A DNA stretch of 64,000 bases, from NCBI RefSeq assembly GCF_002742625.1, contig NZ_PEBF01000001.1, forward strand, positions 1,426,001-1,490,000, read 5' to 3'. Below the pieces are notes generated by a model. That model did no database searches. It worked only from the letters and a program-made list of their open reading frames with translations, and was not told the DNA's origin. This DNA comes from Caulobacter sp. FWC2 (GTDB lineage Bacteria; Pseudomonadota; Alphaproteobacteria; Caulobacterales; Caulobacteraceae). The translations under genes were made by a program, and so were the position numbers. Below are positions 21,080 to 56,198 of this stretch, in pieces (within the stretch, counting starts at the first letter, position 1; the number at the start of each line of letters is the position of its first letter).

Positions 21080-21431
21080 AGCAAGATAACGCTGTCAAAT
21101 TGGTCGTATGAGTTCAGCCGGTCGCTAGATGATTGGTAAGGCCATTTTCAATTGCATGGCTGGCCAATTTCGTTAGGTTGGGGGCGCGCGACGGACGGGG
21201 CTTTACCCTTGTTCGATCGCTTGCTCGTCGACCAAGGCGCTGCGTACCTTGCGCCAACCTCCTCCCGGGGCGGACGACGATGGCGGCCGGAGTCCTCCCT
21301 CCGGTCGCTTCGCCGGGACTTGATGGTAAGGCCACTCCGAGGGGCGTCGGCCCGCGAGTGCTTGTGAGCCGGCGGGACGCAGGCTAGTTCTGTGACGCGC
21401 CGATCGTGGCGCCTGTCCGTGGCCGCTCTTG
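21080..21431. other. 352-bp intergenic region with a duplicated operator-like 11-mer
   Basis: No convincing gene is present; the short frames here lack family signatures. It contains the same 11-mer TGGTAAGGCCA twice, at 21134-21144 and 21324-21334. Each is one base off the TGGT-N3-ACCA pattern seen at 24752 and 40956. Being upstream of the GntR regulator at 21432, these could be autoregulatory sites. No good -35/-10 pair is obvious. Confidence 0.45.
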
Positions 21432-22196
21432 ATGTCGACCCCTTCGCCGGATTCCAGGCTCTACCAGCAGGTGGCGGCAACGATCAGCGGCGCGATCGCC
21501 GACGGCGTCTATCAACCGGGCCATCGCCTGCCATCCGAACGCGACCTGGCCGACGAGTTCGGCGTTTCACGCCCCACCGTCCGCCGCGCCGTCATCGCGC
21601 TGGAGATGCGCGGGCTGCTGGAGGCCCGCCAGGGGTCAGGCGTCTATGTGCGTCTCGACCAGCCGCCGCCGCCGGTGAAGGACCTCGACATCGGGGCCTT
21701 CGAGCAGGCCGAGGCCCGTCGCCTGTTCGAGGGCGAGGCCGCCGCCCTGGCCGCCACCCTTATCACCGACGAGGAGCTGGCCTATCTTGAGACCCTGGTC
21801 GCCGAGATGAACAGCGACGCCTCGACCAAGGAGCAGTCCGAGCTGGCCGATCGCCAGTTCCACATCTCCATCGCCCAGGCCACCCGCAACAACGCCGTGG
21901 TGCGCATCATCGAGAGCGCCTGGGACCTGCGCTACCGCTCGCGCCTGTGCATGCAGATGCTGGAAAAGGCCCGCCATGTGCGCAAGCGGCCGTTGAACGA
22001 CGAGCACCAGGAAATCATCGAGGCCCTGCGGACGCGCGATCCCAAGGCCGCGCGCGCGGCGATGCAGACCCACCTGGGCGGCCTGATCGAGAACCTGCTG
22101 CTGACCGCCGAACTGGAGGCCATCGAGCGCACCCGCGAGAGCCTGGCGGCCAAGCGCGAAGAGATCGCCCTCAGGGCCGCTAGCGCCGCGAAATAA
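21432..22196 (+). CDS. GntR-family regulator, FadR subfamily
   Basis: A 254-aa regulator. The N-terminal winged helix is classic GntR (YQPGHRLPSERDLADEFGVS, RPTVRRAVIALEMRGLLEAR, QGSGVYV), followed by an all-helical FCD effector domain with EARRLFEGEAAALAA and metal-binding-type His positions (RQFHISIAQATRN, DEHQEIIEALR). Relatives of this type respond to hexuronates or related sugar acids. It is the first gene of the pectin block and lies convergent to a receptor gene. I use ATG 21432; a TTG directly before it is an alternative. It is clearly paralogous to the regulator at 27169. Confidence 0.9.
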   Translation: MSTPSPDSRLYQQVAATISGAIADGVYQPGHRLPSERDLADEFGVSRPTVRRAVIALEMRGLLEARQGSGVYVRLDQPPPPVKDLDIGAFEQAEARRLFEGEAAALAATLITDEELAYLETLVAEMNSDASTKEQSELADRQFHISIAQATRNNAVVRIIESAWDLRYRSRLCMQMLEKARHVRKRPLNDEHQEIIEALRTRDPKAARAAMQTHLGGLIENLLLTAELEAIERTRESLAAKREEIALRAASAAK

Positions 22197-22219
22197 ATCC
22201 TCCGCCTTCCAAAAAAGGA

Positions 22220-22246
22220 GGCCGGATCCGCAGGTGGGATCCGGCC
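22220..22246 (-). terminator. Rho-independent terminator of the first TonB-dependent receptor gene
   Basis: Perfect 10-bp stem GGCCGGATCC / GGATCCGGCC with a 7-nt loop. On the minus strand it is followed by CTCCTTTTTTGG, a six-T run. It stops the receptor transcript whose coding region ends at 22286. Confidence 0.85.
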
Positions 22247-22285
22247 GCAGGAGGGGGGCCTTGGAGGCGGGGCTGGACCCGGCCT

Positions 22286-24679
22286 CTAGAAGTTCACGTC
22301 CAGGCGAGCGCCCACGTAGCGGAAGGCGTCGCGACCGGGGAACCACGTCTTGCCGAGCGCGGTCGGGATGGCCGGATTGCTGTAGCCTGACGTGCCGTTG
22401 CCCAGGCCCTGGGCGTAGCGCTTGTCGAACAGGTTGTTGGCGAAGACCGAGATCTTGTAGCGATCGCTCAGGGCGTTGACGCCCAGCTTCAGGTCGACAA
22501 TGCCGTAGGCCTTCTGGATCGTGCGCGGGTCCTGGCTCAGCGAGAAGTTCACGTCGTCCTGCCAGCGATAGGTCGCGCCGACGAAGCCCTTGAAGGGCAT
22601 GCCGGGCAGATCGATGTCGTACTGGCCGCCGATGTTGAACTTGAACTTCGGGGTGTTGTTCAGGCGCTTGCCATGCAGGTTCTGCACCCGGCCGTTGGTG
22701 GTCGGGGTGCGGTAGCACTCGCCCGGCTTGCCGACATAGCCCGCGGGCTGCAGCGGCAGGTCGGCCGTGGCCGGTTGGGCGTTGTTGCAGGGGCCGTTGG
22801 CGAAGTCGACGACGGTCGCGTCTGTGTAGGCGAAGGCGCCGTTGATCCTGAAATTTGAGCTCAGGCGCGCCACCCCGTCCAGTTCCAGGCCCTGGGTGCG
22901 CAACTGACCGACGCTGTTCAGGAAGGTCAGGAACGTGCCGTCCGGCAGGAACGACGTCACCGAGGTCTGGAAGCCCTTGTAGTCGGCCCTGAACAGGGTG
23001 GCGTTGAAATAGGCGCGGCGGTCGAACAGGCTGCTCTTGAAGCCCAGCTCGTAGTTCTTGGCCGTTTCGGGCGGCACCGGCATCTGGGCGGCGATCCGGG
23101 CGTCGAAGGTGCTGACCAGGTCGTAGGCCTGACCCTTGTAGCCGGTCGAGAAGGTCGCGAACGTCATGATGTCCGGCGTCACCTTGTATTGCGCGCCGAT
23201 CTTGCCGGTGAAGGCGTCGTCCTGGTCGGCCTTGCCGAACAGCTGGTGTGTCGTCGCCGCGCCGATGGCGGTGCTGGCGAAGATGGTCTTGTCGAACTTG
23301 TAGCTGATCTTCTGGCGATTGATCCGACCGCCGCCGGTAAGGCTGAGCCGATCGGTGAGGTCCCAGGTGGCGTTGGCGTAGGCCGAGTAGTTCTCGTTGG
23401 TGCTTTCGGCCAGGTAACGGGCCAACTGCAGCACGGGGCCGCGATTCAGGAAGCGGTCCAGGTCGTTCTTGGCGTACCAGAGGCCGGCCACGTAGCGCAG
23501 CCGTGTGTCCCCCGGCGAGGTCAGGCGGAACTCCTGGGTCCAGCTGTCGGCGTGGAAGTAGCCATTGATGACCGCGCCGCTGTTGACGCCCGAGGGGTTG
23601 GCGACGGGGAAGCCCAGCAGGAACGGTACGTCGGTGCCGTCGATGTCCTGGAAGTCGGTCATCTTCCAGCGATCGTGCGACGTGATCGACGACAGGGTGT
23701 GGCCCTTCAGCGCCGAGCCGTCGCCGAAGGCGTAGTCGAGGCGGGCGGTCGTGCCGAACACATCCGAGTTGCCGCCGCCGATACGGTCGTCGGCGCGCAG
23801 GAAGTGGTTGTTCTTGTCGATCGTGATGCCGCGCAGCGTCGTGCTGGCGGGGAAGCCCGGCTCGCCCTGATAGAACAGGCCCGGCGTCAGCTCGCTGATC
23901 ACGCTGGCGCAGCAGCTGCTGACATTGTGGTTGTAGCGTGGGGCCAGGCTGAGGGTCAGGTTCTCGGTCGGCGTCCAGACCAGCTTGGCGGTGGCGGTGA
24001 AGCCCGAGCTGCCGTTGACGTTCTTGCCGGTGGTGAGGTTCTTGACGTTGCCGTCATAGTCGCTCTTGGCGGCCGTCAGGCGAAACAGCAGGTTGTCGCG
24101 GATCGGACCCGAGACGGTGAAGGCCAGGCGACGCTCGGCGTCGTCGGTGGCCAGCGCCATGGCCTTGCCGGAGAATTCCTTGGTCGGAGCGGCGGTGACG
24201 ATGTTCAGTACGCCGGCGATGGCGCTCTTGCCGAACAGGGTGCTTTGCGGGCCGCGCAGCACTTCCACGCGCTCGACGTCGATCAGGTCCTTGAAGGCGG
24301 CGGCCTGGAAGCCGACCGGCACGTCGTCGATGACCACCGCGACATCCGACTCGACGGCGATGCCGTTCGAGAAGGTGCCGATGCCGCGCATGTTGATGCT
24401 GAAATTGCCCGGCTGGCTGCCGTAGTTGATCACCAGGCCCGGCGACAGTTTCACCAGGTCGCCCAGCTCGCGGACGTTGTTGCGGTCCAGCACGTCGGCG
24501 GTGACGGCGGTCACCGAGACAGGCACGTCCTGCAGGCGCTCGGCGCGCTTGGTCGAGGTGACGATGATCTCTTCGAGCTGTGCGGAGTCGGTGTTGGTCT
24601 GCTGAGCCAGAGCCGCGGCGGGGGCGGCGAGCAAGGCCGTCGCCGTGGAGGCGAGCAGCAGCAATCGGATGCTGGTCAT
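22286..24679 (-). CDS. TonB-dependent outer-membrane receptor
   Basis: A 797-aa receptor. A Sec signal peptide (about residues 1-25, ending ALAQQ) is followed by a TonB-box-like segment (LEEIIVTSTKRAERLQDVPV), a plug domain (NNVRELGDLVKLSPGLVINY, VEVLRGPQSTLFGKSAIAGV) and a 22-strand barrel that ends in a C-terminal Phe (GARLDVNF). It would import a sugar or oligosaccharide across the outer membrane using TonB energy. Divergent from kduI, with TGGT-N3-ACCA-type palindromes between them, it probably serves uronate-containing fragments. It is of a different subfamily from the receptors at 41077 and 52264. ATG 24679. Confidence 0.92.
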   Translation of the reverse strand: MTSIRLLLLASTATALLAAPAAALAQQTNTDSAQLEEIIVTSTKRAERLQDVPVSVTAVTADVLDRNNVRELGDLVKLSPGLVINYGSQPGNFSINMRGIGTFSNGIAVESDVAVVIDDVPVGFQAAAFKDLIDVERVEVLRGPQSTLFGKSAIAGVLNIVTAAPTKEFSGKAMALATDDAERRLAFTVSGPIRDNLLFRLTAAKSDYDGNVKNLTTGKNVNGSSGFTATAKLVWTPTENLTLSLAPRYNHNVSSCCASVISELTPGLFYQGEPGFPASTTLRGITIDKNNHFLRADDRIGGGNSDVFGTTARLDYAFGDGSALKGHTLSSITSHDRWKMTDFQDIDGTDVPFLLGFPVANPSGVNSGAVINGYFHADSWTQEFRLTSPGDTRLRYVAGLWYAKNDLDRFLNRGPVLQLARYLAESTNENYSAYANATWDLTDRLSLTGGGRINRQKISYKFDKTIFASTAIGAATTHQLFGKADQDDAFTGKIGAQYKVTPDIMTFATFSTGYKGQAYDLVSTFDARIAAQMPVPPETAKNYELGFKSSLFDRRAYFNATLFRADYKGFQTSVTSFLPDGTFLTFLNSVGQLRTQGLELDGVARLSSNFRINGAFAYTDATVVDFANGPCNNAQPATADLPLQPAGYVGKPGECYRTPTTNGRVQNLHGKRLNNTPKFKFNIGGQYDIDLPGMPFKGFVGATYRWQDDVNFSLSQDPRTIQKAYGIVDLKLGVNALSDRYKISVFANNLFDKRYAQGLGNGTSGYSNPAIPTALGKTWFPGRDAFRYVGARLDVNF

Positions 24680-24727: not shown

Positions 24728-24762
24728 TTGGTATGCCCAACTGATGACTTATGGTCAGACCA
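24728..24762. promoter_or_regulatory. Two adjacent GntR-type palindromes in the receptor/kduI region
   Basis: TTGGTATGCCCAA (24728-24740) is an inverted repeat TTGG/CCAA, and TGGTCAGACCA (24752-24762) is a perfect TGGTC-A-GACCA palindrome. They lie 49-83 bp upstream of the receptor start. The form resembles operators of UxuR/ExuR-type FadR-subfamily regulators (TTGGTA..TACCAA). The rest of the 350-bp gap 24680-25029 holds a half-like site TTGGTAAT (24911-24918) and no gene I can support. Confidence 0.6.
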
Positions 24763-25029
24763 GTTGTCAAGTAGCGTCGTTCGGCGAGCGGATATGGTCT
24801 GGGTGGTTGTTTTCACTGTCAATTCGGCGAACAGCTTGGCGAACAAGGGCTAATGACAACGTTGGACATGCAATCGGCGCGCGTTCGGCCTTTACGGCGT
24901 CACCATCGGATTGGTAATGTCGGTTTCGCAACCAGCGAAAAACGGGGGATGGATGCGCGCCACGGAGCGACCGCCGGTGAATGCCGCGGCTGGCCAGCGC
25001 CCTCCCCGAAGTGGAGGCCAACTCGGCCG

Positions 25030-25878
25030 ATGAGCGTTCAGATGGACTATCGTGAGAGCACCGATCGCGCGGGCATGAGCCGCATGACGGGGCGCGAACT
25101 GCGCGACACCTTCGTCATCGACAAGCTGTTCCGGCCCGGCGAGCTGTCGCTGAGCTATCTGGAGATCGAGCGGGCGGTGGTCGGCTCGGCCGCGCCGACC
25201 GATACGCCCCTGACCCTGCCGACCCACAAGGAGCTGGCCTCGCGGTTCTTCTGTGAGCGGCGTGAGGTGGGCGTGATCAACATCGGCGGTCCTGGCGTGG
25301 TGACCCTGGATGGCGAGGGTCTCGACCTAGCGCGCCACGACAGCCTCTATGTCGGCCGTGGGACGCAGGCCGTCAGCTTCGCGAGCGACGATCCTGCCAA
25401 CCCGGCCAAGTTCTACTTCGTCAGCTATCCGGCTCACGCCAGCCACCCCAGCAAGCGGGTGCGGCGCGACGAGGCCAGGACGATCCAGGCGGGGGAGGCG
25501 ACGACCGCCAATCGTCGGGTGATCCGTCAAGCCATCCGCCCCGGCATCGTCGAGACCTGCCAGCTGGTGATGGGCTTCACCGAACTGGCCGACGGCAATG
25601 TCTGGAACACCATGCCGCCGCACACCCATCGCCGGCGCAGCGAAATCTACATGTACTTCGACACCGACCCTGGCCGGGTCATGCACCTGATGGGGGAGCC
25701 GTCCGAGCCCCGCGCGGTGTTCATGGACGAGGGCGAGGCGGTGTTCTCGCCCAGCTGGTCGATCCACAGCGGCGTCGGCACCTCGAACTACACCTTTGTC
25801 TGGTCGATGGGCGGGGAGAACCTGGAATTCGACGACATGGACGTCCTGGCGGTCTCACAGCTCGGCCCCAATACCTAG
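25030..25878 (+). CDS. kduI: 5-dehydro-4-deoxy-D-glucuronate isomerase
   Basis: A 282-aa cupin-fold enzyme that isomerises 5-keto-4-deoxyuronate (spontaneously formed from unsaturated galacturonate) to 2,5-diketo-3-deoxygluconate. Family motifs are visible: CERREVGVINIGGPG, NTMPPHTHRRRSEIYMYFD with the zinc-binding His/Glu set, and SPSWSIHSGVG. Length fits KduI (about 278 aa). ATG 25030 begins the homologous region; the longer frame from 24853 adds 59 unrelated residues. Acts in the cytoplasm downstream of the lyases and GH88/105 enzymes in this block. The next enzyme, KduD, is not in the window. Confidence 0.93.
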   Translation: MSVQMDYRESTDRAGMSRMTGRELRDTFVIDKLFRPGELSLSYLEIERAVVGSAAPTDTPLTLPTHKELASRFFCERREVGVINIGGPGVVTLDGEGLDLARHDSLYVGRGTQAVSFASDDPANPAKFYFVSYPAHASHPSKRVRRDEARTIQAGEATTANRRVIRQAIRPGIVETCQLVMGFTELADGNVWNTMPPHTHRRRSEIYMYFDTDPGRVMHLMGEPSEPRAVFMDEGEAVFSPSWSIHSGVGTSNYTFVWSMGGENLEFDDMDVLAVSQLGPNT

Positions 25879-25929: not shown

Positions 25930-27138
25930 ATGACCTTCAAGACGCTCCTGACGGCGGCCTTGGCCGCCGCGATCCTGGCCGGCGGCGCGGCGCCGACCAT
26001 CGCCGCCCCCCGAATGTCTGCGAAGGCCGCCGTCGTCAGCGTCACGGCCTCTTCGGTCGACGCGGCCGGCCGCAAGGTCGCGGCCTGGCAGCTGGCCCAC
26101 ATGGACAACTTCGACTACGTGCCGGTCGCCGCGTTCCGAAAGGACACCGAGGCGCCCCGCGACTGGATCCAGGCGGCCTTCTATATTGGCCTGTACACCT
26201 TCGCCGACGCGACCCAGGACCCGTACCTCACCACCGCGATCCTCAAGCACGGCGAGGCGCAAGCCTGGGGCTTCGACCATCGTCCGCGCCACGCCGACGC
26301 AGACGCCACCGGCGCGGTGTGGGTCTGGGCCGCCGGTCGCACCAAGGACCAGAGCAAGCTCGCGCCGATCCGCGCGCGCTTCGACGCGGTGCTGGCCGAT
26401 CCGTCCACCGTGTCGCTGGACTTCGCGCCGAAGCCGGCCAAGGGCGACCCCTACTGCCAGGCGCGCTGGTGCTGGAGCGACGCCATCTTCATGGCCCCGC
26501 CCGCCTGGGTCAGCCTCGCCAAGGTCACTGGCGACAGGCGCTACCTGGACCACGCCGACAGCGAGTTCTGGGCGACGACCGACTATCTCTACGACAAGAC
26601 CGACCATCTCTATTTCCGCGACAGCCGCTTCATCACGCGCCGCAGCGACGCGGGCGCGAAGATCTTCTGGGGACGCGGCAATGGCTGGGCCTATGCGGGC
26701 ATCGCGCGGATCCTGCAGGACCTGCCGGCCAATCATCCCAGCCGTCCGAAGTACGAGGCGATCTTCAAGCAGATGTCGGCCAAGATCGTCACCCTGCAGG
26801 GCGCCGACGGCTACTGGCCGGTCTCGCTGCTGGAGCCGCAGAAGACGCCGGAGACCAGCGGCACGGGCTTCTTTGTCTACGGCCTGGCCTGGGGCGTGAA
26901 CCACGGCCTGCTGCCCCGCGCCAAGTACGGCCCGGCGATCGACAAGGGCTGGAAGGCGCTGGACGCGGCCATAGAGCCGGACGGTCGTCTGGGCTGGGTG
27001 CAGCGCGTCGGAGTCGCGCCTGACCAGGTGGGTCGCGATGATACTCAGCTCTATGGCGTCGGCGCGTTCCTGCTGTCGGCCAGCGAAGTTCGCAAGCTCG
27101 CGCAAGGCTCTGCTTCCAAAGGCCTGACCTCGCGCTAA
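25930..27138 (+). CDS. Unsaturated rhamnogalacturonyl hydrolase (GH88/GH105)
   Basis: A 402-aa secreted (alpha/alpha)6-barrel enzyme. The Sec signal peptide (about 1-26, ending TIAAP) is followed by the GH88/105 core, including WSDAIFMAPP with likely catalytic Asp184, FWGRGNGWAYAGIARIL and TGFFVYGLAWG. These enzymes release the 4,5-unsaturated galacturonate left at the non-reducing end by pectin or rhamnogalacturonan lyases, giving the substrate that becomes 5-keto-4-deoxyuronate for KduI. It follows kduI by 51 bp with its own Shine-Dalgarno (GGGAGAA), so the two are likely one operon. A second family member is fused to DUF4861 at 49765. Confidence 0.88.
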   Translation: MTFKTLLTAALAAAILAGGAAPTIAAPRMSAKAAVVSVTASSVDAAGRKVAAWQLAHMDNFDYVPVAAFRKDTEAPRDWIQAAFYIGLYTFADATQDPYLTTAILKHGEAQAWGFDHRPRHADADATGAVWVWAAGRTKDQSKLAPIRARFDAVLADPSTVSLDFAPKPAKGDPYCQARWCWSDAIFMAPPAWVSLAKVTGDRRYLDHADSEFWATTDYLYDKTDHLYFRDSRFITRRSDAGAKIFWGRGNGWAYAGIARILQDLPANHPSRPKYEAIFKQMSAKIVTLQGADGYWPVSLLEPQKTPETSGTGFFVYGLAWGVNHGLLPRAKYGPAIDKGWKALDAAIEPDGRLGWVQRVGVAPDQVGRDDTQLYGVGAFLLSASEVRKLAQGSASKGLTSR

Positions 27139-27168
27139 GATAGATTCTCTCCATCCAAGCGAGGTTTG

Positions 27169-27921
27169 ATGCGCACGGCGCAGGATCCCCAGAAGCTGTA
27201 CCAGCAGGTGGCCCGTTCGATCGCGGCCTCGATCGCCGAGGGGCGCTATGTCCCTGGCGACCGCCTGCCGTCCGAGCGGGGACTGGCCGACTCGTTCGGG
27301 GTCAGCCGGCCCACGATTCGTGACGCGATGATCGCCCTGGAATTCCAGGGGCTGGTCGAGGCCCGCCAGGGCTCCGGCGTCTATGTCACCACCCGGGGCA
27401 AGCCCGAGGAAGACGTCACCGAGGCCGAGGTCAGCGCTCTGGAGCTGACCGAGGCTCGCCGCCTGTTCGAGGGCGAGGCCTGCGCCCTGGCCGCCGCGGT
27501 CAGCGACGAGCATATCGCGGGGCTGGAGCGCATCGCCCGCGACCTGACCAACCTGGCCGCCACCGAGGACGGCGAGCGGCTGGAGCACGATTTCCACCTC
27601 GCCGTGGCCCACGCTACCCGCAACGCCGCCATCGTCGCGGCGGTCGAGGAGATCTGGACGCTGCGTCGGCAGTTTCCCGACTGCTCCAGCCAGTTGCGCC
27701 GCGTGCGCCTGGCCGATCCGAAGAACTTCGCCGAGGATCACCACCGCATCGTGGCCGCCTTGCGCGACCGTGATCCCAAGGAAGCGCGCCGCGCGATCCA
27801 TGATCACCTGAACCGCACGGTCGAGACTCTGTTGTCGATGGCCGAGCGCGATGCGCTGGAGCGGACCCGCCGCGAGATGGCTGAACGCCGCGACGAACTG
27901 TTGCGCCGCACTACCATCTGA
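27169..27921 (+). CDS. GntR-family regulator, FadR subfamily (second copy)
   Basis: A 250-aa regulator closely similar to the one at 21432 over its whole length: YVPGDRLPSERGLADSFGVS, then RPTIRDAMIALEFQGLVEAR and QGSGVYV, then an FCD domain (ELTEARRLFEGEACALAA, DHHRIVAALRDRDP). It lies 30 bp after the GH88/105 gene, so it is probably in the kduI operon and could feed back on it. ATG 27169 is used; GCGAGG lies 4 bp before it. A TTG one codon upstream is the alternative. Effector probably a uronate-derived acid, by analogy only. Confidence 0.9.
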   Translation: MRTAQDPQKLYQQVARSIAASIAEGRYVPGDRLPSERGLADSFGVSRPTIRDAMIALEFQGLVEARQGSGVYVTTRGKPEEDVTEAEVSALELTEARRLFEGEACALAAAVSDEHIAGLERIARDLTNLAATEDGERLEHDFHLAVAHATRNAAIVAAVEEIWTLRRQFPDCSSQLRRVRLADPKNFAEDHHRIVAALRDRDPKEARRAIHDHLNRTVETLLSMAERDALERTRREMAERRDELLRRTTI

Positions 27922-28896: not shown

Positions 28897-29991
28897 CTAC
28901 GCGGCCCCGATCTTGTTGCCGTAGCCGATGACGATGGTCGCCACGATCAGCAGGGCGATGCCGCCCCAGACCGTGGCTTTCACGCCCGGACGGGCGTCCT
29001 TCCACTCCCGCAGGGCAAAGCCCCAGACGGTGCCGAAGATGATGATGCTGGCCATGTGCAGCGTCCAGCTGGAGAAGCCGAACTTGCCCATCTGGCTCTC
29101 GCCCATCGTGTAGAAGAAGAACTGGAAGTACCAGGCCGTGCCGGCCAGGGCGCACAGCAGGTAGTTGGCCAGCAACGGCGGCTTGGCTTCGCCAGCGTCT
29201 TTGGAAGCCGCGTCCTCGGCAGGCGCGGCGCCGCCCAGCCACTGGCCGGCGCTCTTGTTGCGCACGATCAGGAAGCCGCACCAGACGCCGTTGGTCAGCA
29301 GGCCGCCGAACATGACCAGGCACAGCACCGGCAGGCCGGTCCACAGCGGGCCGGTGCCAGCCGCCGCCGACAGCGCCTTGATCGGCTCGCCCGCCGCCAG
29401 ACCGAAAGCGAAGCAGGCCGACATGATCCCGGAAAAGATCGCCACGGCGACGCCCTTCTTGAAGTCGAACTCGGCGATGACCGCTTTCTTGGCGTCCTCG
29501 GAGAGTGCGGCGTCCTTGCGCGCCCCGGCCAGGGCTACGACGACGATGCCAGCCAAGGTGATGACAAGGCCTAGCAGGATGATCCGGCCCGAGGCGTTGT
29601 TCAGCAGCTTCTCGGCGAAGTCGCCCTGGACGATCGGCGGGATCAGCGTCCCGAACACCGTGCAGAGGCCTAGCACCACCGCCATGCCAAGCGACAGGCC
29701 CAGATAGCGCATGGTCAGCCCGTAGGTCAGGCCGCCGAAGCCCCAGAGCACGCCGAACAGGATGCAGAGGCCGGCGATATTGCCCGGCACCTGGCTCATC
29801 ACGCCCATCAAGTCGCGGGTCTGGATCGCGGCGAAAAACCACGGCGCCAGCAGCCAGGAGAAGATCCCCCCGGTCAGCCAGAAGATCTCCCACGACCAGC
29901 GGCGCACCCCGCGATAGGGCACGTAGAAGCTGGCCGAGGCCAGGCCGCCCAGCCAGTGGAACAGCACGCCGAGCAACGGGTTGGGCGTCAT
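28897..29991 (-). CDS. rhaT: L-rhamnose/proton symporter
   Basis: A 364-aa inner-membrane protein with about ten hydrophobic segments of the RhaT (drug/metabolite transporter-like) family. N-terminal motifs match E. coli RhaT-type proteins: GVLFHWLGGLASASFYVPYR, WEIFWLTGGIFSWLLAPW, and FGVLWGFGGLTYGLTMRYLG. It should take up L-rhamnose with H+ from the periplasm after GH78 action. It is the last of six genes in the minus-strand rhamnose operon, 34 bp after the mutarotase gene. Confidence 0.93.
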   Translation of the reverse strand: MTPNPLLGVLFHWLGGLASASFYVPYRGVRRWSWEIFWLTGGIFSWLLAPWFFAAIQTRDLMGVMSQVPGNIAGLCILFGVLWGFGGLTYGLTMRYLGLSLGMAVVLGLCTVFGTLIPPIVQGDFAEKLLNNASGRIILLGLVITLAGIVVVALAGARKDAALSEDAKKAVIAEFDFKKGVAVAIFSGIMSACFAFGLAAGEPIKALSAAAGTGPLWTGLPVLCLVMFGGLLTNGVWCGFLIVRNKSAGQWLGGAAPAEDAASKDAGEAKPPLLANYLLCALAGTAWYFQFFFYTMGESQMGKFGFSSWTLHMASIIIFGTVWGFALREWKDARPGVKATVWGGIALLIVATIVIGYGNKIGAA

Positions 29992-34120: not shown

Positions 34121-34251
34121 CGGCGTCGACTCCCCGAGGCAGGCTCTGTTTTGGCCCAAATGCACGCTAGTCCCATATTTCGGGAACGCTCTGGCTATTC
34201 GTGGCCGTGATCTGCAAACTGACGTCCAAAATGAAGGTCCTAAGTAGTGGA

Positions 34252-34268
34252 CTTTCACAATGTGAGAG
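34252..34268. promoter_or_regulatory. Inverted repeat upstream of the IclR gene, candidate operator
   Basis: CTTTCACA-A-TGTGAGAG is a 17-bp inverted repeat with 7 of 8 arm positions matching, ending 13 bp before the IclR start. The 160-bp divergent region also has TCCC-N7-GGGA near 34171 and GTCC-N8-GGAC near 34237. One of these probably binds the IclR regulator. Confidence 0.45.
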
Positions 34269-49600: not shown

Positions 49601-49761
49601 CACGAGAAGCGCGGCGTCGGGTTGTCCAGTCCCAGGGGGCTATGGATCTGGTCGACGCGCGGCGTGGCGACGCGGGCCGTCCCCCGAGCGGCGGCCTTGG
49701 CCGCGCCGGCGGTCAGGCTGGCGCCGGCGCCCGCGACGGCCAGAAACTGGCGGCGGTCCAT
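46666..49761 (-). CDS. Alpha-L-rhamnosidase (GH78)
   Basis: A 1031-aa secreted glycosidase with a Tat signal (DRRQFLAVAGAGASLTAGAA). The order is N-terminal beta-sandwich domains, then the (alpha/alpha)6 catalytic barrel with the GH78 hallmark DCPQRDERMGWTGDAQIFWD, GATTVFERWDG carrying the likely general base Glu, and GSLNHYAFGAVCGF, then a C-terminal beta domain. It releases L-rhamnose from rhamnogalacturonan or glycosides. It lies 3 bp behind the GH105-DUF4861 gene and 8 bp before GH28, so the three are co-transcribed. Confidence 0.95.
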   Translation of the reverse strand: MDRRQFLAVAGAGASLTAGAAKAAARGTARVATPRVDQIHSPLGLDNPTPRFSWTIEAFGAKGVKQSAYRIRVAVSRPSLTGGPFLWDSGKVSSDATFDIAYAGPALASRQRLWWRVEAWDGAGKSIRASTPAWFEMGLLEPWSAGWLEAETPAMRQERLEGMQWIWGATDDTKPRKFRWRFDMPADAVSAVVSVCAKDSLNGLWVDGANLIKPGDRTAWGQGPSFTLPRLAPGPHVLAVEAGLRLDEPRPVLGGALAARLIITRADGSVVRIHATDGWRTALDAPDGWREANFDDAAWPAAVAARTIPPCHPWVTGPAVRLRRAFRLDKPVASARLYATALGAYEARLNGQKVGDRLLTPESTDFRSRALSQAYDVTDMVKAGDNVLGALVADGWFGSPFGFLDLRYAFGPPPRRFSGLLEVSHPDGAITRIATEGDGWKLAPSAVLKAEIYDGETHDARLDETGWDGPGFDDRVWTPARKGDAPPVHVPAQPGPGIRAIQILKPTQTTTPRAGIRIVDFGQNFSGWCRIRVRGAAGEQVTLRHAEALKLDGTLNTTSNRRALQTDTYVLRGDPAGEIWEPRFTFHGFRYVEVTGPLTDIEGVVAHSDAALTGAARLDNPMVQAIVNNTLWSQRGNFLGIPTDCPQRDERMGWTGDAQIFWDAAAFNMDLDAFTRRFMGDVRAGQAPTGEMPDTAPFWALGQNTPGWADAAVILPWTVWRRYGDTSIISENWDAMDRWSRRLLDLNPDHVWRKARGMDYGDWLSVDAKSRSDITTPKELVSTAYWAHSTDLMAQMAKATGRAVDAGRLTALRSKIGQAFAREFVRSDGGVGNDSQTSHILALRFTLVPPALRQASANRLAADIRRRETKLSTGFIGTPYILDALADHGHADLAYGLLLQTDLPSWGYQVGQGATTVFERWDGLKDGVVTGSLNHYAFGAVCGFIWRRIIGIDALEPGFRKIAIRPLIDPRLPGAAGDYESVVGRISSAWKRTTGGIRLDVTIPPNTTARVELPSRVVEIGSGSHTFTFSA

Positions 49762-49764: not shown

Positions 49765-52023
49765 CTAGTGACCCGGGTTGAAATCGGGCTTCTGCGCGAA
49801 GACATAGGTCTCCCAATCGGCGCGCGAATGGAAGTCGAGGCCTTTGTCCCAGGCCGCGCCCATATAGTAGACGAACGGCTTGCCCGGCTCGACCTTGACC
49901 AGGATCAGCCAGTCACTCTCGGTCTCGGTGACGCCGACGATCTGCCTGGGATCGACCAACAGCGCCACGCCCATCGCGCCCTTGTCGGTCTCGGTGACAT
50001 CCCAGAACGAGAACACGCCCTTGGCCTTGTCGGCGCGCAGGTCGCCGGCCTGCTTGGCGGTCGGCTTCTTGGTGATGCCCAGGGCGACGGTGATCGGTCC
50101 CTTGGCGTTCGAGCCGAAGGTCGAGACCATGCGCGTGAAGTTCGTGCCCATCGGCAGGGTGAAGGTCCGGCTTTCCCAGACCTCGCGCTTTTCGCCCACT
50201 TTCCACGGTGCGTAGCTGACCTTGAACGAGGCCGCGTCGGGGCCATCCTTCAGGATTTTGTAGTCCTTCCAGTTGCGCGACACCCACAGCTTGCCGCCGT
50301 CCCAGACGCCCAGGCCGCCCGCGCCGCGGAAGGTCCCGACGTTGTAATAGTCGATGCCCTCGCCGTGATAGGCGTGCTGGTCGCCGGTGCGCAGCTGCCG
50401 GGTCATGAACGGGTAGCGGACGCTCTTGCCCCAGGCGTCGATGCCCGAGGTCGAGGGCGGTTCGAACTGCTCCAGCGCCGGGCCGTAGATGCGGTGGGCC
50501 GTGCGGTCGTTCTCCCACAGGATGTCGTCATACCGCTCGGGCGCGTAGCGGACGCTGGCGCGGGGCTTGTCCTGGCCGGTCGGCGGTGGGGCCATGCGGT
50601 AGATCATCTTCGGCGGCGTTGGCTGGCCCGGCGCGGCGGGCGGAACCTGGGCGGGCGCCAGGCCCGGACCCTCGATGGCCGGATCGTAGGCGAGGGCGGC
50701 GACGGCCTTCATCTCGGTGGCGTGGCGGGCTTCCTCCTCGGGACCGCGCACGGTGCGCGGCACGGGCGGGACGGGCGTCGAGGCGGCCACGAAGTCGGCG
50801 GCGTCCCGCGACGGCTCGGCCAGGGGCAGGGCGGTGGTCGGCTTGCCGAGGTTCATCACCTCCAACCCGGCCAGCAGGAAGGCGCCCGTCCCGTAGGGGC
50901 CGATGTCGTCGGCGGCTGTCGGCACCGGCTGATCGCCGGTCTTCTGCACCGAGCCGATCATGCCGCTGGGCAGCACCTGCTTTTGCAAACCGTGCCAGCC
51001 CTTGACGACCACCGGCTGATAGGTCGCGCGGTCCAGGATCCCGTGGTTGATCCCCCAGGCCAGGGCGTAGACGAAGAACGACGAACCCGAGGTCTCGGCC
51101 TCCGGGAACGTCTCCGGCTGCATCAGGCTAGACGCCCACAAGCCGTCGGCGCGCTGCAGGCCCGCGACCCGCTTGGCCATGGCCTGGAAGACGGCGACGT
51201 AGCGGGGCCGCGAGATGTAGTCCGCCGGCATCGACTCCAGCACACGGGCGGTCCCGGCCATCACCCAGCCGTTGCCGCGCGACCAGAAGAGCTTGCGGCC
51301 CTGCGCGTCGCGGCGCTCGATGAAGCGCTCGTCGCGGAAATAGAGGCTGTCGTCGGGGCTGTAGAGGCGCGCGAAGGTGCGCCACCACTGCTTGTCCATG
51401 GCGTCGAGATATTTCTTGTCGCCGGTCTGGGCGCTCATCCGCGCCAGCACCGGCGGGGCCATGAACAGGGCGTCGCTCCACCACCAGACCAGATGCTCGG
51501 GGATCGGTTGGCGGGCCAGGTGTGGCAGGGCCCAGTCCAGGCGCTGGCGCAGGGGCATGATCACGCCCTCCTGACCGCGACGGGCGTAGAGCTCCTCGTA
51601 GAGATCGCCGATCGCCATCTCGTCGGCGTTCAGCATGGCCTTGCCGTTCTTCGCGCCGCGCAGGGCGTAGTTGTAGTGCTCGGCCGCGTCGGTCAGGAAC
51701 TTCAGGGTCTCGGCGTCGCCGGTGGCCCGCGCCAGGCGCGCCGCGCCGACATAGTAGGTCGCCGACACCCAGTTGGAGGACATCTCACGCACCGCGCCCC
51801 CGGTGGTGACCGGGATCGGCTCGGCCCGCATGGCGTCGATCTGGGCCTTGTTGGCGCGGTTGAGCACCGCCAGCACGTCCGCCGGAGCGGGGAGCACGGC
51901 CACCGCCGCCGGGCGCTTCGGCGCGGCCATCACCGGCGCTCCGACGGCGCACAGGGCCGTGGCGCACAGCAAGGCGGCGAGGCCGGCCTGACGGATGGGC
52001 TTTGAACGCGGGGTCACGGGCAC
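49765..52023 (-). CDS. GH105-type unsaturated rhamnogalacturonyl hydrolase fused to DUF4861
   Basis: A two-domain secreted protein of about 752 aa. The signal peptide (QAGLAALLCATALCAVGAPV) is followed by a GH88/105 (alpha/alpha)6 domain with WWWSDALFMAPP and LFWSRGNGWVMAGTARVL, ending near residue 440. A Pro-rich linker (APAQVPPAAPGQPTPPK) leads to a DUF4861-like beta-rich domain from about 480 (YDDILWENDRTAHRIYGPAL, FPSTSG-like and YHGEGIDYYNVGTF). I place the start at GTG 52023, with GAGGAA 7 bp upstream. In-frame ATGs at 52053, 52071 and 52122 are alternatives with poor RBS. The role of DUF4861 is not established. Confidence 0.82.
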   Translation of the reverse strand: MPVTPRSKPIRQAGLAALLCATALCAVGAPVMAAPKRPAAVAVLPAPADVLAVLNRANKAQIDAMRAEPIPVTTGGAVREMSSNWVSATYYVGAARLARATGDAETLKFLTDAAEHYNYALRGAKNGKAMLNADEMAIGDLYEELYARRGQEGVIMPLRQRLDWALPHLARQPIPEHLVWWWSDALFMAPPVLARMSAQTGDKKYLDAMDKQWWRTFARLYSPDDSLYFRDERFIERRDAQGRKLFWSRGNGWVMAGTARVLESMPADYISRPRYVAVFQAMAKRVAGLQRADGLWASSLMQPETFPEAETSGSSFFVYALAWGINHGILDRATYQPVVVKGWHGLQKQVLPSGMIGSVQKTGDQPVPTAADDIGPYGTGAFLLAGLEVMNLGKPTTALPLAEPSRDAADFVAASTPVPPVPRTVRGPEEEARHATEMKAVAALAYDPAIEGPGLAPAQVPPAAPGQPTPPKMIYRMAPPPTGQDKPRASVRYAPERYDDILWENDRTAHRIYGPALEQFEPPSTSGIDAWGKSVRYPFMTRQLRTGDQHAYHGEGIDYYNVGTFRGAGGLGVWDGGKLWVSRNWKDYKILKDGPDAASFKVSYAPWKVGEKREVWESRTFTLPMGTNFTRMVSTFGSNAKGPITVALGITKKPTAKQAGDLRADKAKGVFSFWDVTETDKGAMGVALLVDPRQIVGVTETESDWLILVKVEPGKPFVYYMGAAWDKGLDFHSRADWETYVFAQKPDFNPGH

Positions 52024-52216
52024 TGGCGATTTCCTCGACGCGCCGACGCTCATGGGGTCAGCGATATTCATTATTTGGAATAGAATGTCAGATTTTGAAA
52101 AGTTGTCCACCAGCCGCGCCACTGGGTTTTGGCGGTGTCACAGCATAGGCGCACCCGCCCATTATTCCGCCTGTGGGCTTGCAAAAAATGGAAACCGATC
52201 GCAGCATGTGAAGACA

Positions 52217-52232
52217 ATGATACCGGTGTCAT
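52217..52232. promoter_or_regulatory. LacI-type palindrome upstream of the third receptor
   Basis: ATGATACCGGTGTCAT is a 16-bp palindrome matching at 14 positions, with central CCGG. Its core (GATACCGGTGTC) is the exact reverse complement of the site at 41043-41054. It ends 31 bp before the ATG of the receptor. Confidence 0.6.
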
Positions 52233-52263
52233 CAAGAACACCAACCTGGGAGGGTACGAGATA

Positions 52264-55218
52264 ATGGCTTCATCCAAGAGTTTTGCCCTGCGTGATCGCC
52301 TGCTGACGGGCGCCGCGGGCCTAGTTTTCGCCCTGGCGGCCGGCGCGGCGCAAGCGCAACAGGCCACACCGGCCCCGGCGGGCGATGACACCGTCGAGGC
52401 GGTGGTCGTCACGGGTTTCCGCAACAGTCTCCAGCAGGCCCTGAACGTCAAGCGCTCCTCGGCGGCGGCGATCGACGCCATCTACGCCGAGGACATGGCC
52501 AAGTTCCCGGACCTGAACCTGTCCGAATCCATCCAGCGCATCCCGGGTGTCGCGATCTCGCGTGACGCCGGCGAAGGCCGCCAGATCTCGGTCCGCGGCC
52601 TGGGCGCCCAGTTCACTCGCGTGCGCATCAACGGGATGGAAGCGCTCACCACCTCGGGCGGCACCGACGCCTCGGGCGGCACCAATCGCAGCCGCTCGTT
52701 CGACTTCAACGTCTTCGCTTCGGACCTCTTCAACCGCATCACGGTGCAGAAGACCGCCTCGGCCGAGACGGAGGAGGGCTCGCTGGGCGCGACCGTCGAC
52801 CTGAACACCGCCCACCCGTTCGACAAGCGCGGCTTCAACTTCGCGGTGTCGGGCAAGTACGGCTACAACGATCAGGCCAAGAAGGCCTCGCCGCGCATGG
52901 CGGCCCTGATCTCGAACACCTGGCGCGACGACACCATCGGGGCTCTGTTCTCGATCGCCTATTCCAAGCGCGACCTGCTGGACGAAGGTACGAGCACGGT
53001 GCGCTGGCAGACGGGCACGGCGACGGCGCCGGGCTTCCGCAGCGTGAAGGGCGTGACCTGCGCCACCAACGCCGCCGCCTGCGCCGAGGCCAATGGCGCG
53101 GTCCACCCGCGTATCCCGCGCTTCGACTGGTACAAGAACAAGCAGGACCGCCTGGGCATGACCGGGTCGCTGCAATGGGCGCCGGACGACAAGACCACGG
53201 TCTCATTCGACGTGCTGTACGCCGACTTCAAGGGCGAGCGTAACGAGGACTTCCTCGAGACCTTCACGCCCCAGACCGCCGGCGCCTGTACGGCGACCTC
53301 GGCGCCCTCTTGCGGCATCAACCAGGTCGACGTGGTCGACTACACGGTGGCCAGCCCCCGTTCTGGCCTCTCGGTCATGACCAAGGGGACTTGGAACAAT
53401 GTCGACCTGAAGACCGAGCAGCGCCACGACGAACTGGAGACCGAGTTCCGCCAGTTCACCCTGGCCGGCGAGCGCCAGTTCACCGACAAGTTCAAGGCCA
53501 AGGGCGTGCTCGGCTTCTCGAAGTCGACCTTCTCCAACCCGGTTCAGAACACGGTCCAGTGGGACCAGTACAACGTCCAGGGCTACAGCTTCGACTACAG
53601 CGCCGGCGACGCCTATCCGGTGATCAAGTACGGCACTGGCGACACCGTGAACGCCGACGCCTGGACCCTAGCCGAGATCCGCATGGTTCAGGGCTATGTC
53701 GACAACAGCTACAAGACCGGCCAGTTCGACCTGGCCTATGACTTCAGCGACGCCTTCAAGCTGAAGGGCGGCCTGTCCTATAAGGCCTATGGCGTCGAGA
53801 GCACGGCCTTCGCCCGGTCGAACGGTACGACGGCGAACATCAACCCGGTCAATTCAACCGACCTGAAGAACGTGCCGCGGTCCAGCTATGCCGAGACGAT
53901 CGACTTCTCCAGCCTGAAGATCCCGGGCGGCAACGTGACCTCGTGGATCACGCCGGACCTGAACAAGGCCATCGCGGCCCTGCACATGGACGACGCCAGC
54001 TACGGCAAGACCGTCACCACCACGCCGGGCACCGTCTGGGTCAGCCCGTTCGGCAATACGTGCTTCACCCAGGGCTGCGGCATCTACAACCTGGGTCGCG
54101 AGCCCAGCCTGGGCAGCAACTACTCGATCGATGAGTGGGACACGACCGGCTACGTCCAGGGCGACTTCAAGTTCGAGGTCGGCGGCGTGCCGGTGCGCGG
54201 CGACGTGGGCGTCCGCTACGTGAAGACCCGCCAGAAGGCGCTCGGCTATGGCGTGGTGCCCTCTACCGTCAACGGCGTGAACTACCAGACGATCTCGGCC
54301 ACGACCGCCACGCGCGCCTATACCGACGTGCTGCCGGCCATGAACGTGGTCGTCGAGCCGCGCGAAGACCTGCTGCTGCGCTTCGGCGCCGCCAAGGTCA
54401 TGTCGCGTCCAAACCTCGGTTCGCTGACGCCGGGCGTGAACATCGGCACCGGTTCGACCAAGTCGGTGACCTCGGGCAACCCGTTCCTGGATCCGTACCG
54501 CGCCAAGACCGCCGACGCCGCCGTCGAGTGGTACTTCCAGCCGGGCGGCCTGCTGTCCTTCGCCTACTTCTATAAGGACATCTCGACGTTCGTGCAGAGC
54601 TACACATCGGCGCTGTCGACCTTCGACCAGAACCCGTTCGGCCTGCCGGACAGCGCGGCGGTCGCGGCCTGCGGCACCACGCCGGGCTGCTCGCCCAGCC
54701 TGCCGGTCTGGCAGTTCAGCACCTCGGTCAACACGCCCGGCGGTCCGCTGAAGGGCTTCGAGATCAACTACCAGCAGCCCTTCACCTTCCTGCCGGCGCC
54801 CTTCGACAAGTTCGGCTTCCTGGGTAACTACACCCACGTGACGTCGAACGTGACGTACCTGTCCTCGACCGGCGCGGTGGCGGCCATCGGCCCGCTGACC
54901 AACCTGTCCAAGGACAGCTACAACGCCACGCTCTACTTCGAGAACAAGAAGATCAGCAGCCGCGTCTCGGCCGCTTATCGTTCCAAGTACCTGACCCAGA
55001 TCCCGGGCCGTAACGGTTCGGACGTCGAAGGCACCAAGGCGACGCTGAATTTCGACGCCTCGCTGACCTACACCTTGAACAAGAACTTCGCTTTCACGCT
55101 CGAGGGGGTCAATCTGACCAACGAGAAGCAGGACCAGTATTACGACAGCAGCCAGCTGGTGTCGTTCTACCACGAGACCGGCCGCGAGTTCTTCGCCGGC
55201 TTCCGCTACACCTTCTAA
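52264..55218 (+). CDS. TonB-dependent receptor (Xanthomonas/Caulobacter type)
   Basis: A 984-aa outer-membrane receptor. The Sec signal ends at GAAQAQ. A TonB-box-like region (VEAVVVTGFRNSLQQALN) precedes a plug (DLNLSESIQRIPGVAISRDA, RSFDFNVFASDLF) and a barrel that finishes in FFAGFRYTF. It is in the same subfamily as the receptor at 41077. Its divergent neighbours are the GH105-DUF4861, GH78 and GH28 operon, so rhamnogalacturonan fragments are the likely cargo. ATG 52264 is preceded by GGGAGGG; the frame extends upstream to 52129 but the added 45 residues are not signal-like. Confidence 0.92.
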   Translation: MASSKSFALRDRLLTGAAGLVFALAAGAAQAQQATPAPAGDDTVEAVVVTGFRNSLQQALNVKRSSAAAIDAIYAEDMAKFPDLNLSESIQRIPGVAISRDAGEGRQISVRGLGAQFTRVRINGMEALTTSGGTDASGGTNRSRSFDFNVFASDLFNRITVQKTASAETEEGSLGATVDLNTAHPFDKRGFNFAVSGKYGYNDQAKKASPRMAALISNTWRDDTIGALFSIAYSKRDLLDEGTSTVRWQTGTATAPGFRSVKGVTCATNAAACAEANGAVHPRIPRFDWYKNKQDRLGMTGSLQWAPDDKTTVSFDVLYADFKGERNEDFLETFTPQTAGACTATSAPSCGINQVDVVDYTVASPRSGLSVMTKGTWNNVDLKTEQRHDELETEFRQFTLAGERQFTDKFKAKGVLGFSKSTFSNPVQNTVQWDQYNVQGYSFDYSAGDAYPVIKYGTGDTVNADAWTLAEIRMVQGYVDNSYKTGQFDLAYDFSDAFKLKGGLSYKAYGVESTAFARSNGTTANINPVNSTDLKNVPRSSYAETIDFSSLKIPGGNVTSWITPDLNKAIAALHMDDASYGKTVTTTPGTVWVSPFGNTCFTQGCGIYNLGREPSLGSNYSIDEWDTTGYVQGDFKFEVGGVPVRGDVGVRYVKTRQKALGYGVVPSTVNGVNYQTISATTATRAYTDVLPAMNVVVEPREDLLLRFGAAKVMSRPNLGSLTPGVNIGTGSTKSVTSGNPFLDPYRAKTADAAVEWYFQPGGLLSFAYFYKDISTFVQSYTSALSTFDQNPFGLPDSAAVAACGTTPGCSPSLPVWQFSTSVNTPGGPLKGFEINYQQPFTFLPAPFDKFGFLGNYTHVTSNVTYLSSTGAVAAIGPLTNLSKDSYNATLYFENKKISSRVSAAYRSKYLTQIPGRNGSDVEGTKATLNFDASLTYTLNKNFAFTLEGVNLTNEKQDQYYDSSQLVSFYHETGREFFAGFRYTF

Positions 55219-55229
55219 GTGCTCGTGCG

Positions 55230-55265
55230 CGGCGCGGTTCTTCGGAGCCGCGCCGTTTCGCTTTT
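55230..55265 (+). terminator. Rho-independent terminator after the third receptor
   Basis: Stem CGGCGCGG / CCGCGCCG around a 10-nt loop (55230-55255) followed by TTTCGCTTTT. It is 12 bp after the receptor stop. Confidence 0.78.
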
Positions 55266-55332
55266 GGAGGGGGCGGACCTATACGGTTCCGAAGTTGATA
55301 TCGGGCTGGCGTCCGGTTTGAGGAGTAGAGTG

Positions 55333-56037
55333 ATGGGCGGTTTGCGGCGACGCGAAGTCCTGGTCGGCGGCGGCGCCCTCGCGGGCGGTCTGTTGGCGAG
55401 CGGCGCGGAGGCGATGACCCGGCTCCCGGGGCCGACCCGCTGGGTCTTCGACCGTCTATCCAACATCGGCGGCGTCGGCACCACGGTCGAAGGCGAGCCG
55501 ACGCTGGTCGACAGTCCCTATGGCAAGGCCGTTCAGTTTGACGGCGTCGACGATCGCCTGGTCATCGGAAAACATCCGCTGGCCGGCATGAGCCAGTTCA
55601 CCTTCGAGGCCCTGTTCCGCCCCGACGGCGGGGTCTTCGCCCAGCGCTGGTTCCACCTCAACGAGGAAGACGTAACGCCCGGCGCGCCGCCCTCGGTGAC
55701 GCGCATCCTGTTCGAGATCCGGGTTAAGGACGGCGCCTGGAGCCTGGACGCCTTCGCAACGGGGCAGGGCTACAAGCAGACCCTGCTGTTCCTGGACAAG
55801 ACCTATCCGATCGGCCCCTGGTACTGGGTGGCCCAGAGCTATGACGGCAAGACCTATCGGTCGTTCGTCAACGGCGAGCTGCAGGGCGAGGCCGACATCG
55901 CCTACGCGCCGCAAGGTCAGGGCCGCAGCTCGGTCGGCGCCCGCATGAACAAGGTCGACTACTTCAAGGGCGCGATCCGCGAAGCCCGCTTCACGCCCCG
56001 GGCGCTGGCGCCAGCGGCGCTGCAGAAGACCCGCTGA
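55333..56037 (+). CDS. Secreted LamG/concanavalin-like domain protein
   Basis: A 234-aa protein. Its N-terminus is a Tat-like signal (LRRREVLVGGGALAGGLLAS). The rest is a LamG-type beta-sandwich: GKAVQFDGVDDRLVIGKHPL, QFTFEALFRPDGG, WYWVAQSYDGKTYRSFVNGE, and FKGAIREARFTPRALAP. These match the jelly-roll pattern of LamG_3 domains. Such domains bind or are accessory to carbohydrates. It follows the third receptor after a terminator, so it might be part of its transport or binding function. No catalytic residues are apparent. ATG 55333 has AGGAG upstream. Confidence 0.8.
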   Translation: MGGLRRREVLVGGGALAGGLLASGAEAMTRLPGPTRWVFDRLSNIGGVGTTVEGEPTLVDSPYGKAVQFDGVDDRLVIGKHPLAGMSQFTFEALFRPDGGVFAQRWFHLNEEDVTPGAPPSVTRILFEIRVKDGAWSLDAFATGQGYKQTLLFLDKTYPIGPWYWVAQSYDGKTYRSFVNGELQGEADIAYAPQGQGRSSVGARMNKVDYFKGAIREARFTPRALAPAALQKTR

Positions 56038-56198
56038 GGGGCGCTTGATCGTCACACCGGCCTGAGTCCTGGTATCGCGTCGCGCTGTCCCGTGTGCCCG
56101 TCAGCGACTTGGCGCTGCACATGTCACTGCCAAACATATCCGTGGATTCCGGGAAGTAACCTCCGGCCGACCCGGCTCGACTCGCGTATCGCCAACCC

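Follow-up and report, generated by a model that had tools for sequence, protein, structure and literature searches.

The question raised by this locus is how pectin depolymerases, three TonB-dependent receptors and a route for rhamnose catabolism came to lie side by side in Caulobacter sp. FWC2, and whether they share a function. The block in question spans 21.4-56.0 kb (as delimited by Pfam and NCBIfam scans of the window proteins) of a window of 64,000 nucleotides, i.e. the whole stretch of DNA that was analysed, which corresponds to positions 1426001-1490000 of contig 1 (C1) in a genome (G000) of 5.5 Mb. An earlier note on this DNA had read it as one rhamnogalacturonan/pectin utilization block. 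Following the results below, it seems instead, with a probability of roughly 0.8, that it is a composite pectin/rhamnoside utilization island of the TonB-receptor (CUT) kind, which was recently joined and has its galacturonate arm elsewhere in the genome.

Block content and the remote galacturonate arm

From left to right, the block opens with a GntR/FCD regulator, TonB receptor 1, KduI, a GH88/105 protein, a second GntR/FCD regulator, a family-less open reading frame (ORF) of 108 aa and a glyoxalase-like gene, the latter two of which (28035-28812) have no obvious link to sugar breakdown and break up the block. These are followed by the rhamnose genes (RhaT, RhaM, an amidohydrolase, a short-chain dehydrogenase (SDR), Lra6, Lra3, an IclR-family regulator, Lra1 and LldD) and by a 756-aa protein, here called u756, with the pectinase set, i.e. 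a PelZ-like lyase, TonB receptor 2, PL22, GH28, GH78, a GH105-DUF4861 fusion, TonB receptor 3 and a LamG protein. A GST gene at 20351 (with WYL) flanks the block on the left, and tRNA-Val(cac) (56621..56695, minus strand) forms its right border, with a HAD hydrolase gene at 56744, in agreement with the earlier description of a block between ordinary genes.

Genes were chosen from the ORF list by their third-position G+C pattern together with family scans, and the former led to the rejection of the minus-strand ORFs 36975-39080 and 43797-45191. Family calls are Pfam models above curated cut-offs, complemented by NCBIfam and solved-structure matches, while signal peptides and compartments were assessed by eye. 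By these standards the gene content named earlier is correct: the three TonB receptors, GH28, GH78, two GH88/105 proteins (PF07470), PL22 and KduI all lie above their curated Pfam cut-offs, to which rhaM, u756, the DUF4861 domain on the second GH105 and the LamG protein can be added.

What does not lie in the block is the galacturonate arm. None of UxaABC, KduD, KdgK or the aldolase was found among the block proteins scanned by Pfam; a galacturonate/2-keto-3-deoxygluconate locus is instead present at C1 3.334-3.348 Mb, ~1.86 Mb away, and holds a PfkB kinase, a KDPG-type aldolase, KduD (424 bits, cut-off 339), a second KduI, UxaC, a LacI regulator, altronate dehydratase and a mannitol-dehydrogenase-type gene read as UxaB. 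With KduD, UxaC, altronate dehydratase and their partners at this remote locus, a galacturonate arm inside the block is ruled out, and the claim that both arms are encoded together cannot be upheld; that import, depolymerisation and catabolism share one stretch is right for rhamnose and wrong for galacturonate. The absence of a SusD-like protein was borne out, in that SusD_RagB (PF07980) gave 0 matches in the genome while the Bacteroides control rang (other SusD-type models were not tried). A third pectin-type spot, with a TonB receptor, two GH28 genes and a LacI regulator, lies at C1 3954000-3973900.

Modules at separate places in relatives

The history of the block was read from a genus sample of 75 genomes (own included), some with fragmented assemblies (e.g. 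G193, which is too broken to tell). PL22 is present in 32, L-rhamnonate dehydratase in 35 and u756 in 16 of these. PL22 and the dehydratase lie at most 20 kb apart in 21 of the 32 genomes with both (22 on one contig) and u756 and PL22 in 11 of 15, while for u756 and the dehydratase this is the case in 5 of 16 (9 on one contig).

The 20-40 kb around u756 were read in eight relatives (G158, G160, G161, G166, G179, G182, G203 and G213), where absences may reflect the ends of the stretches. PL22 and GH28 were each found in seven, TonB receptor 2 and GH105-DUF4861 in six, LamG in four (54-61% identity, again closing the set), PelZ in three and GH78 in two, and neither Lra1 nor Lra3 was found in any. 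The G158 stretch holds an SDR 80% like that of the window, and in OR37 (G213) RhaT lies 8.4 kb from u756, just beyond the stretch read. In G161 the pectinase set follows the window order (u756, pelZ, TonB receptor 2, PL22, GH28, GH78, GH105-DUF4861, LamG), without receptor 3. The set lies 3.2 Mb (G160) and 1.1 Mb (G161) from the HAD gene on the same contig, and a plasmid of Asticcacaulis excentricus likewise carries a pectin set that includes u756.

The stretch between the GST and HAD genes (20351-57457 in the window) was likewise read in eight relatives. tRNA-Val adjoins HAD in all of them, and gntR1-kduI-GH105-gntR2-orf108 (the first four genes being referred to as module A) is in place in five (G213, G182, G203, G212, G176) and missing in three (G042, G116, G189). 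Among the 31 genus genomes compared (out of 56 with a GST match), 23 have their GST and HAD genes 3 to 159 kb apart. Our conclusion is that, within this variable stretch beside tRNA-Val, module A represents the older content. No repeat of the tRNA-Val stretch of at least 12 bases was found in the window, nor any attachment repeats, and the two borders share nothing longer than 11 bases.

In Caulobacter sp. 602-1 (G176), identity to the window is 90-99% for the rhamnose genes and u756, and LamG directly follows u756, the ~16-kb pectinase part (39.3-55.25 kb of the window) being missing; PL22 has no match anywhere in that genome. G203 is also without PL22 by u756. Because seven of eight relatives keep PL22 by u756, its absence from 602-1 is more likely a loss. 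It was in the line of the window and 602-1, we conclude, that module A was joined by the rhamnose genes and the pectinase set, and the joining of the three at this site would be recent. One ancestral 35-kb unit is ruled out by the modules at separate places in relatives, and the block as a single unit thus gives way to three parts that mostly lie apart in close relatives. As for linkage in related Caulobacter genomes, on which the earlier note had made its reading depend, the block taken in its entirety is a composite of recent date, but the recurring sub-modules are no chance neighbours.

Genes of the three modules

Module A consists of GntR/FCD regulator 1 (21429..22196, plus strand; PF00392 and PF07729 above cut-off), KduI (24853..25878, plus; NF002091 375 bits, cut-off 250), a GH88/GH105 unsaturated-uronyl hydrolase (25930..27138, plus; PF07470) and GntR/FCD regulator 2 (27166..27921, plus; Pfam scan), with TonB receptor 1 (22286..24679, minus; Pfam above cut-off), a variable element of the module, in between. 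The true start of KduI is probably downstream of 24925, because the family match begins at residue 64.

The rhamnose module starts with five genes for uptake and catabolism on the minus strand: the L-rhamnose/H+ symporter RhaT (28897..29991; NF010024 545 bits, cut-off 468), the L-rhamnose mutarotase RhaM (30026..30340; PF05336 96.5 bits, cut-off 23.4), an amidohydrolase as putative L-rhamnonolactonase (30340..31248; PF04909, with an L-fucono-1,5-lactonase model below cut-off), an SDR as putative 2-keto-3-deoxy-L-rhamnonate 4-dehydrogenase (31296..32060; PF00106 and gene position only) and the 2,4-didehydro-3-deoxy-L-rhamnonate hydrolase Lra6 (32057..32920; NF053535 508 bits, cut-off 500). L-rhamnonate dehydratase (Lra3; 32942..34300, minus; NF011968 772 bits, cut-off 393) probably starts downstream of the ORF start, its family match running from residue 61. 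On the plus strand follow the IclR-family regulator (34282..35085; Pfam scan), the L-rhamnose 1-dehydrogenase Lra1 (35118..35879; NF053807 460 bits, cut-off 400) and the L-lactate dehydrogenase LldD (35882..37015; NF033901 648 bits, cut-off 550). Since the hydrolase yields pyruvate and L-lactate, LldD would burn the L-lactate produced by the route. The oxidative L-rhamnose route thus appears complete, with mutarotase, RhaT and L-lactate dehydrogenase; of the earlier claim that the whole route is encoded, Lra1, Lra3, Lra6 and RhaT stand above cut-offs, whereas the lactonase and SDR steps are assigned by family and position.

The pectinase set comprises a PelZ-like pectate lyase (39460..40908, minus; 9buj at E 3e-47, with NCBIfam PelZ at 171 of 840 bits and below cut-off), TonB receptor 2 (41029..43770, plus; Pfam above cut-off), the oligogalacturonate lyase PL22 (43854..45194, plus; PF14583 86.9 bits, cut-off 30), GH28 with a twin-arginine-like signal (45296..46657, minus; PF00295), the alpha-L-rhamnosidase GH78 (46666..49761, minus; five domains above cut-off), GH88/105 fused to DUF4861 (49765..52122, minus; PF07470 and PF16153 above cut-off), TonB receptor 3 (52129..55218, plus; Pfam above cut-off; true start probably at 52264) and a LamG/ConA-like protein with a twin-arginine-like signal (55219..56037, plus; PF13385). 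A relative of the GH88/105-DUF4861 fusion lies near u756 in 25 of 70 loci (described below), and a paper search found no literature for DUF4861 with GH105, nor for DUF4861 or DUF4450.

Regulation

A search for GntR sites gave operator-like sites upstream of gntR1 (21131 and 21323), a putative operator pair in the interval between TonB receptor 1 and kduI (24728..24765, i.e. 24728-24739 and 24749-24765) and a putative operator GATTGGTAATACCAGAG before TonB receptor 2 (40953..40969, plus strand). Two exact copies of the core TGGTNNNACCA are present in the window, each in a gap separating divergent genes (24752, kduI/receptor 1; 40956, before receptor 2). Allowing one mismatch gives 20 matches, many inside genes, versus 11.1 expected, and none of 100 shuffles attains 20. 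Ahead of receptor 2, the site is retained as TTGGTAAKACCAGAG by G160, G161, G182 and G158. With a matrix built from five sites (threshold 14; expectation from 60 simulated windows), four window places score at least 14, versus 0.3 expected. Five relatives have further matches before gntR1 and four at the kduI start (15.0-19.1), and the remote galacturonate locus has one of 14.6 in the gap separating altronate dehydratase from uxaB. Because operator-like sites occur at the block sites, in relatives and at the remote locus, the motif suggests one GntR regulon spanning scattered loci, in which the TTGGTAAKACCA-like sites ahead of gntR1, kduI/TonB receptor 1 and TonB receptor 2 are the probable targets of a GntR/FCD regulator.

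In the rhamnose module no matrix match reaches 14, and a single match with two mismatches falls within a gene, at 31543. The rhamnose genes are probably governed by IclR. In a palindrome search before the rhamnose genes (16 relatives and the window), the commonest repeat listed occurs in 11 relatives without the window, and a 5-base repeat, GCAGC (spacer 8), is common to seven relatives and the window; no conclusion was drawn from these.

The protein u756

u756 (37050..39320, plus strand; 756 aa, with a signal-like N-terminus) belongs to no Pfam family above cut-off (PF03632 14.1 bits, cut-off 27; PF14498 13.7, cut-off 27.7) and to no NCBIfam family above cut-off (no GH139 model was sought by name), and a single-sequence search of solved structures gave no match. 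An AlphaFold2 model from a 35-row alignment (pLDDT 91.4, pTM 0.92) has as its best solved Foldseek match the GH65 alpha-1,2-glucosidase 7fe3 (E 4.8e-24, 14% identity, TM 0.64/0.72, rmsd 6.9). Behind it come GH95 and further GH65 enzymes and, lower in the ranking, a GH139 fucosidase. The alignment profile weakly matches 7fe3 (E 2e-4) and the kojibiose phosphorylase 3wiq (E 7e-4). GH65, GH95 and GH139 share a fold of a beta-sandwich and an (alpha/alpha)6 barrel, which is present in the predicted model. The overall predicted fold thus resembles these families (E 5e-24 to 7e-15), but identities are 10-14% and scores remain below the GH65-type Pfam cut-offs. Glu and Asp residues are invariant in the 35 rows, e.g. 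E378, E504, D591 and D631.

The gene context was read in 70 reference-genome loci (as much as 10 kb to either side, contig permitting, with our own thresholds); judged by u756, those nearest to the window come from Caulobacter. Rhamnose-catabolic (23) or pectin (39) genes are held by 49 loci and neither by 21, while 15 (some on short contigs) are without rhamnose, pectin or fucose genes; PL10-like genes lie nearby in 23 and GH28 in 20. In Phenylobacterium deserti the locus has an L-rhamnose isomerase and a RhaEW-type aldolase/dehydrogenase, both above cut-off, i.e. an unrelated rhamnose pathway, and five Sphingomonas loci have an L-fuconate-dehydratase-like gene together with FucP (above cut-off in the single locus tested). 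In a tree (made by a quick method, with several deep forks open, labels set by us and two by RhaT alone), the fucose type forms a single clade, while rhamnose types occur in Hyphomonadaceae/Parvularculaceae, the window's clade, Brevundimonas and kin, Phenylobacterium and Sphingomonadales. u756 was found in 6 of 150 genomes of an order-wide sample, and among nine records of relatives in a plasmid collection, seven are labelled 'hypothetical protein' and two are without annotation.

Several other proteins were met in these loci. A DUF4450 protein of ~1118 aa lies beside PL22/GH28 in locus L005 (16722-20075) and on the Asticcacaulis plasmid (L136:24570-27935), and a relative of it near u756 in 16 of the 70 loci. 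An exported-looking (twin-arginine) oxidoreductase with a below-cut-off inositol dehydrogenase match lies near u756 in several Sphingomonas/Steroidobacteraceae loci (L023:8427-9878, L052, L053, L054, L056, L070, L073). Distant u756 relatives are present on Actinomycetota plasmids (L138:11998-14133, 37.5% identity, beside GH3; L137:11893-14283, 42%, near GH97).

Proposed working and alternatives

In the proposed working, outer enzymes (the PelZ-like lyase and GH28) would cut pectin, and TonB receptors 2 and 3 would take up the oligomers, which periplasmic PL22, the two GH88/105 proteins, GH78 and u756 would trim to unsaturated uronate, galacturonate and L-rhamnose. Rhamnose would enter via RhaT and be converted by RhaM, Lra1, the lactonase, Lra3, the SDR and Lra6 to pyruvate and L-lactate, the latter being oxidised by LldD, while KduI would pass its uronate product to the second locus ~1.86 Mb away.

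A number of observations weigh against this reading, and some of them favour alternatives. No uronate inner-membrane transporter was seen in the block. TonB receptor 1 is siderophore-receptor-like by NCBIfam (below cut-off), and it is full-length in one of the eight relatives (G182) and missing or cut in the other seven, in one of which it is partial. A second PL22 copy, with 54-57% identity to that of the window, is the one found near the dehydratase in G158, G160, G161, G166, G179, G182 and G213, while the PL22 beside u756 is 74-90% like the window's. As to regulation, the exact count of TGGTNNNACCA is weak alone (5 of 100 shuffles also reach 2), G166 and G213 lack the site before receptor 2, and two of the four best matrix matches are training sites. 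That the genes are a chance neighbourhood, i.e. unrelated sugar genes gathered in a variable stretch by a tRNA gene without a shared function, would fit the wide range of GST-HAD distances, as well as the 11 of 16 genomes in which u756 lies over 20 kb from L-rhamnonate dehydratase or on another contig, but it is very improbable given that the content and order of the pectinase set are kept at another place in G161, that PL22 and the dehydratase so often lie close together (21 of 32 genomes), and that module A and the pectinase set have an operator-like site in common. The substrate raises a further doubt. GH28 is best matched by a rhamnogalacturonidase in NCBIfam (191 of 650 bits, no NCBIfam cut-off being reached) versus an exo-polygalacturonosidase among solved structures (3jur), neither of which is decisive; among solved structures, both GH105 proteins are closest to an unsaturated 3S-rhamnoglycuronyl hydrolase (4ce7); and of the rhamnogalacturonan lyases, PL11 (RGL11_C) is absent from the genome with its control ringing, while PL9 and PL26 were not searched. 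The PL4 model PF14683 was silent in the genome, but silent in all 14 controls too. No rhamnogalacturonan lyase was found, which makes rhamnogalacturonan no more than a putative backbone substrate. The 4ce7 likeness and the lack of such a lyase would suit another rhamnose- and uronate-rich glycan (ulvan, a gum or arabinogalactan cap, or a bacterial exopolysaccharide) in place of pectic rhamnogalacturonan, yet PL22 and the PelZ-like lyase point to homogalacturonan, PL10-like and GH28 genes accompany u756 in relatives, and no sulfatase match was found among the block proteins scanned, which makes this alternative improbable, if less so than a chance neighbourhood.

For u756 itself, the simplest reading of the predicted fold and gene context is an exo-acting 6-deoxy-L-hexosidase, most likely for rhamnosides, and we infer an alpha-L-rhamnosidase-like activity. 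More tentatively, and with considerable doubt, u756 may found a GH65/GH95-fold family, unassigned in Pfam and NCBIfam, that releases terminal 6-deoxy-L-hexoses, chiefly alpha-L-rhamnose from rhamnosides of pectic or other origin, and that is spread through Alphaproteobacteria, Oxalobacteraceae and Steroidobacteraceae, often with two unrelated types of rhamnose catabolism, one Sphingomonas clade having turned to L-fucose. If true, the rhamnosidases would gain a family separate from both GH106 and the adjoining GH78. Its fold neighbours (GH65, GH95 and, further down, GH139) and the five Sphingomonas relatives beside FucP and the fuconate-dehydratase-like gene could also mean that u756 cleaves an alpha-L-fucoside, or, from its GH65 likeness, that it may be an alpha-1,2-galacturonidase. 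This seems unlikely, as the fucose context is confined to one clade while rhamnose contexts occur in several, with two different pathways; moreover, because a FucP-family transporter (34-39% identity) also lies beside u756 in Brevundimonas-type rhamnose loci, FucP alone is no marker of fucose.

Relation to known systems

The diketo-hydrolase (LRA) variant of the non-phosphorylative L-rhamnose pathway was reportedly described by Watanabe and Makino. The block matches it in Lra1, Lra3 and Lra6, whose models are above cut-off, with RhaT, RhaM and LldD in addition, and differs in that its lactonase and SDR steps are assigned by family and position. A related aldolase variant occurs in Azotobacter and Sphingomonas, according to PMC3870299. 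CUT loci, as described by Blanvillain et al. 2007 (PMC1790865), combine one or more TonB receptors with degrading enzymes, a regulator and an inner-membrane transporter; the same paper gives a putative pectin CUT locus in Xanthomonas (XCC0120-0122), seemingly unique to that strain, and several other CUT loci as conserved in Caulobacter crescentus. The block resembles these in its TonB receptors beside matching degrading enzymes, its inner-membrane transporter RhaT and its regulators (GntR/FCD twice, IclR), but it has three receptors and additionally carries u756 and a route for rhamnose catabolism, and it is known here from sequence alone. With the SusC/SusD polysaccharide utilization loci of Bacteroidetes it shares clustered depolymerases, a TonB-dependent porin and regulators, whereas its genome has no SusD_RagB match. 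A comparable pectin set lies on plasmid pASTEX01 of Asticcacaulis excentricus CB 48 (NC_014818.1), where kduI, PL22, a GH88-family protein, a TonB receptor, GH28, a pectate lyase and a u756 relative ('hypothetical protein') lie together, but with no rhamnose catabolic gene annotated in the stretch, and with GalB and DUF4450 present.

Because CUT loci and the non-phosphorylative rhamnose route are known, the block as a whole is of an already known kind, and u756 is the part that could be new: a conserved hydrolase-fold protein, 'hypothetical' in public records, for which the context narrows the substrate towards 6-deoxy-L-hexosides. The block itself is a well-resolved case of a TonB-receptor sugar locus that was assembled from three modules, apart in relatives and joined beside a tRNA gene. 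Outside the block, the window encodes at 13585-15141 a protoglobin domain joined to a methyl-accepting chemotaxis signalling domain.

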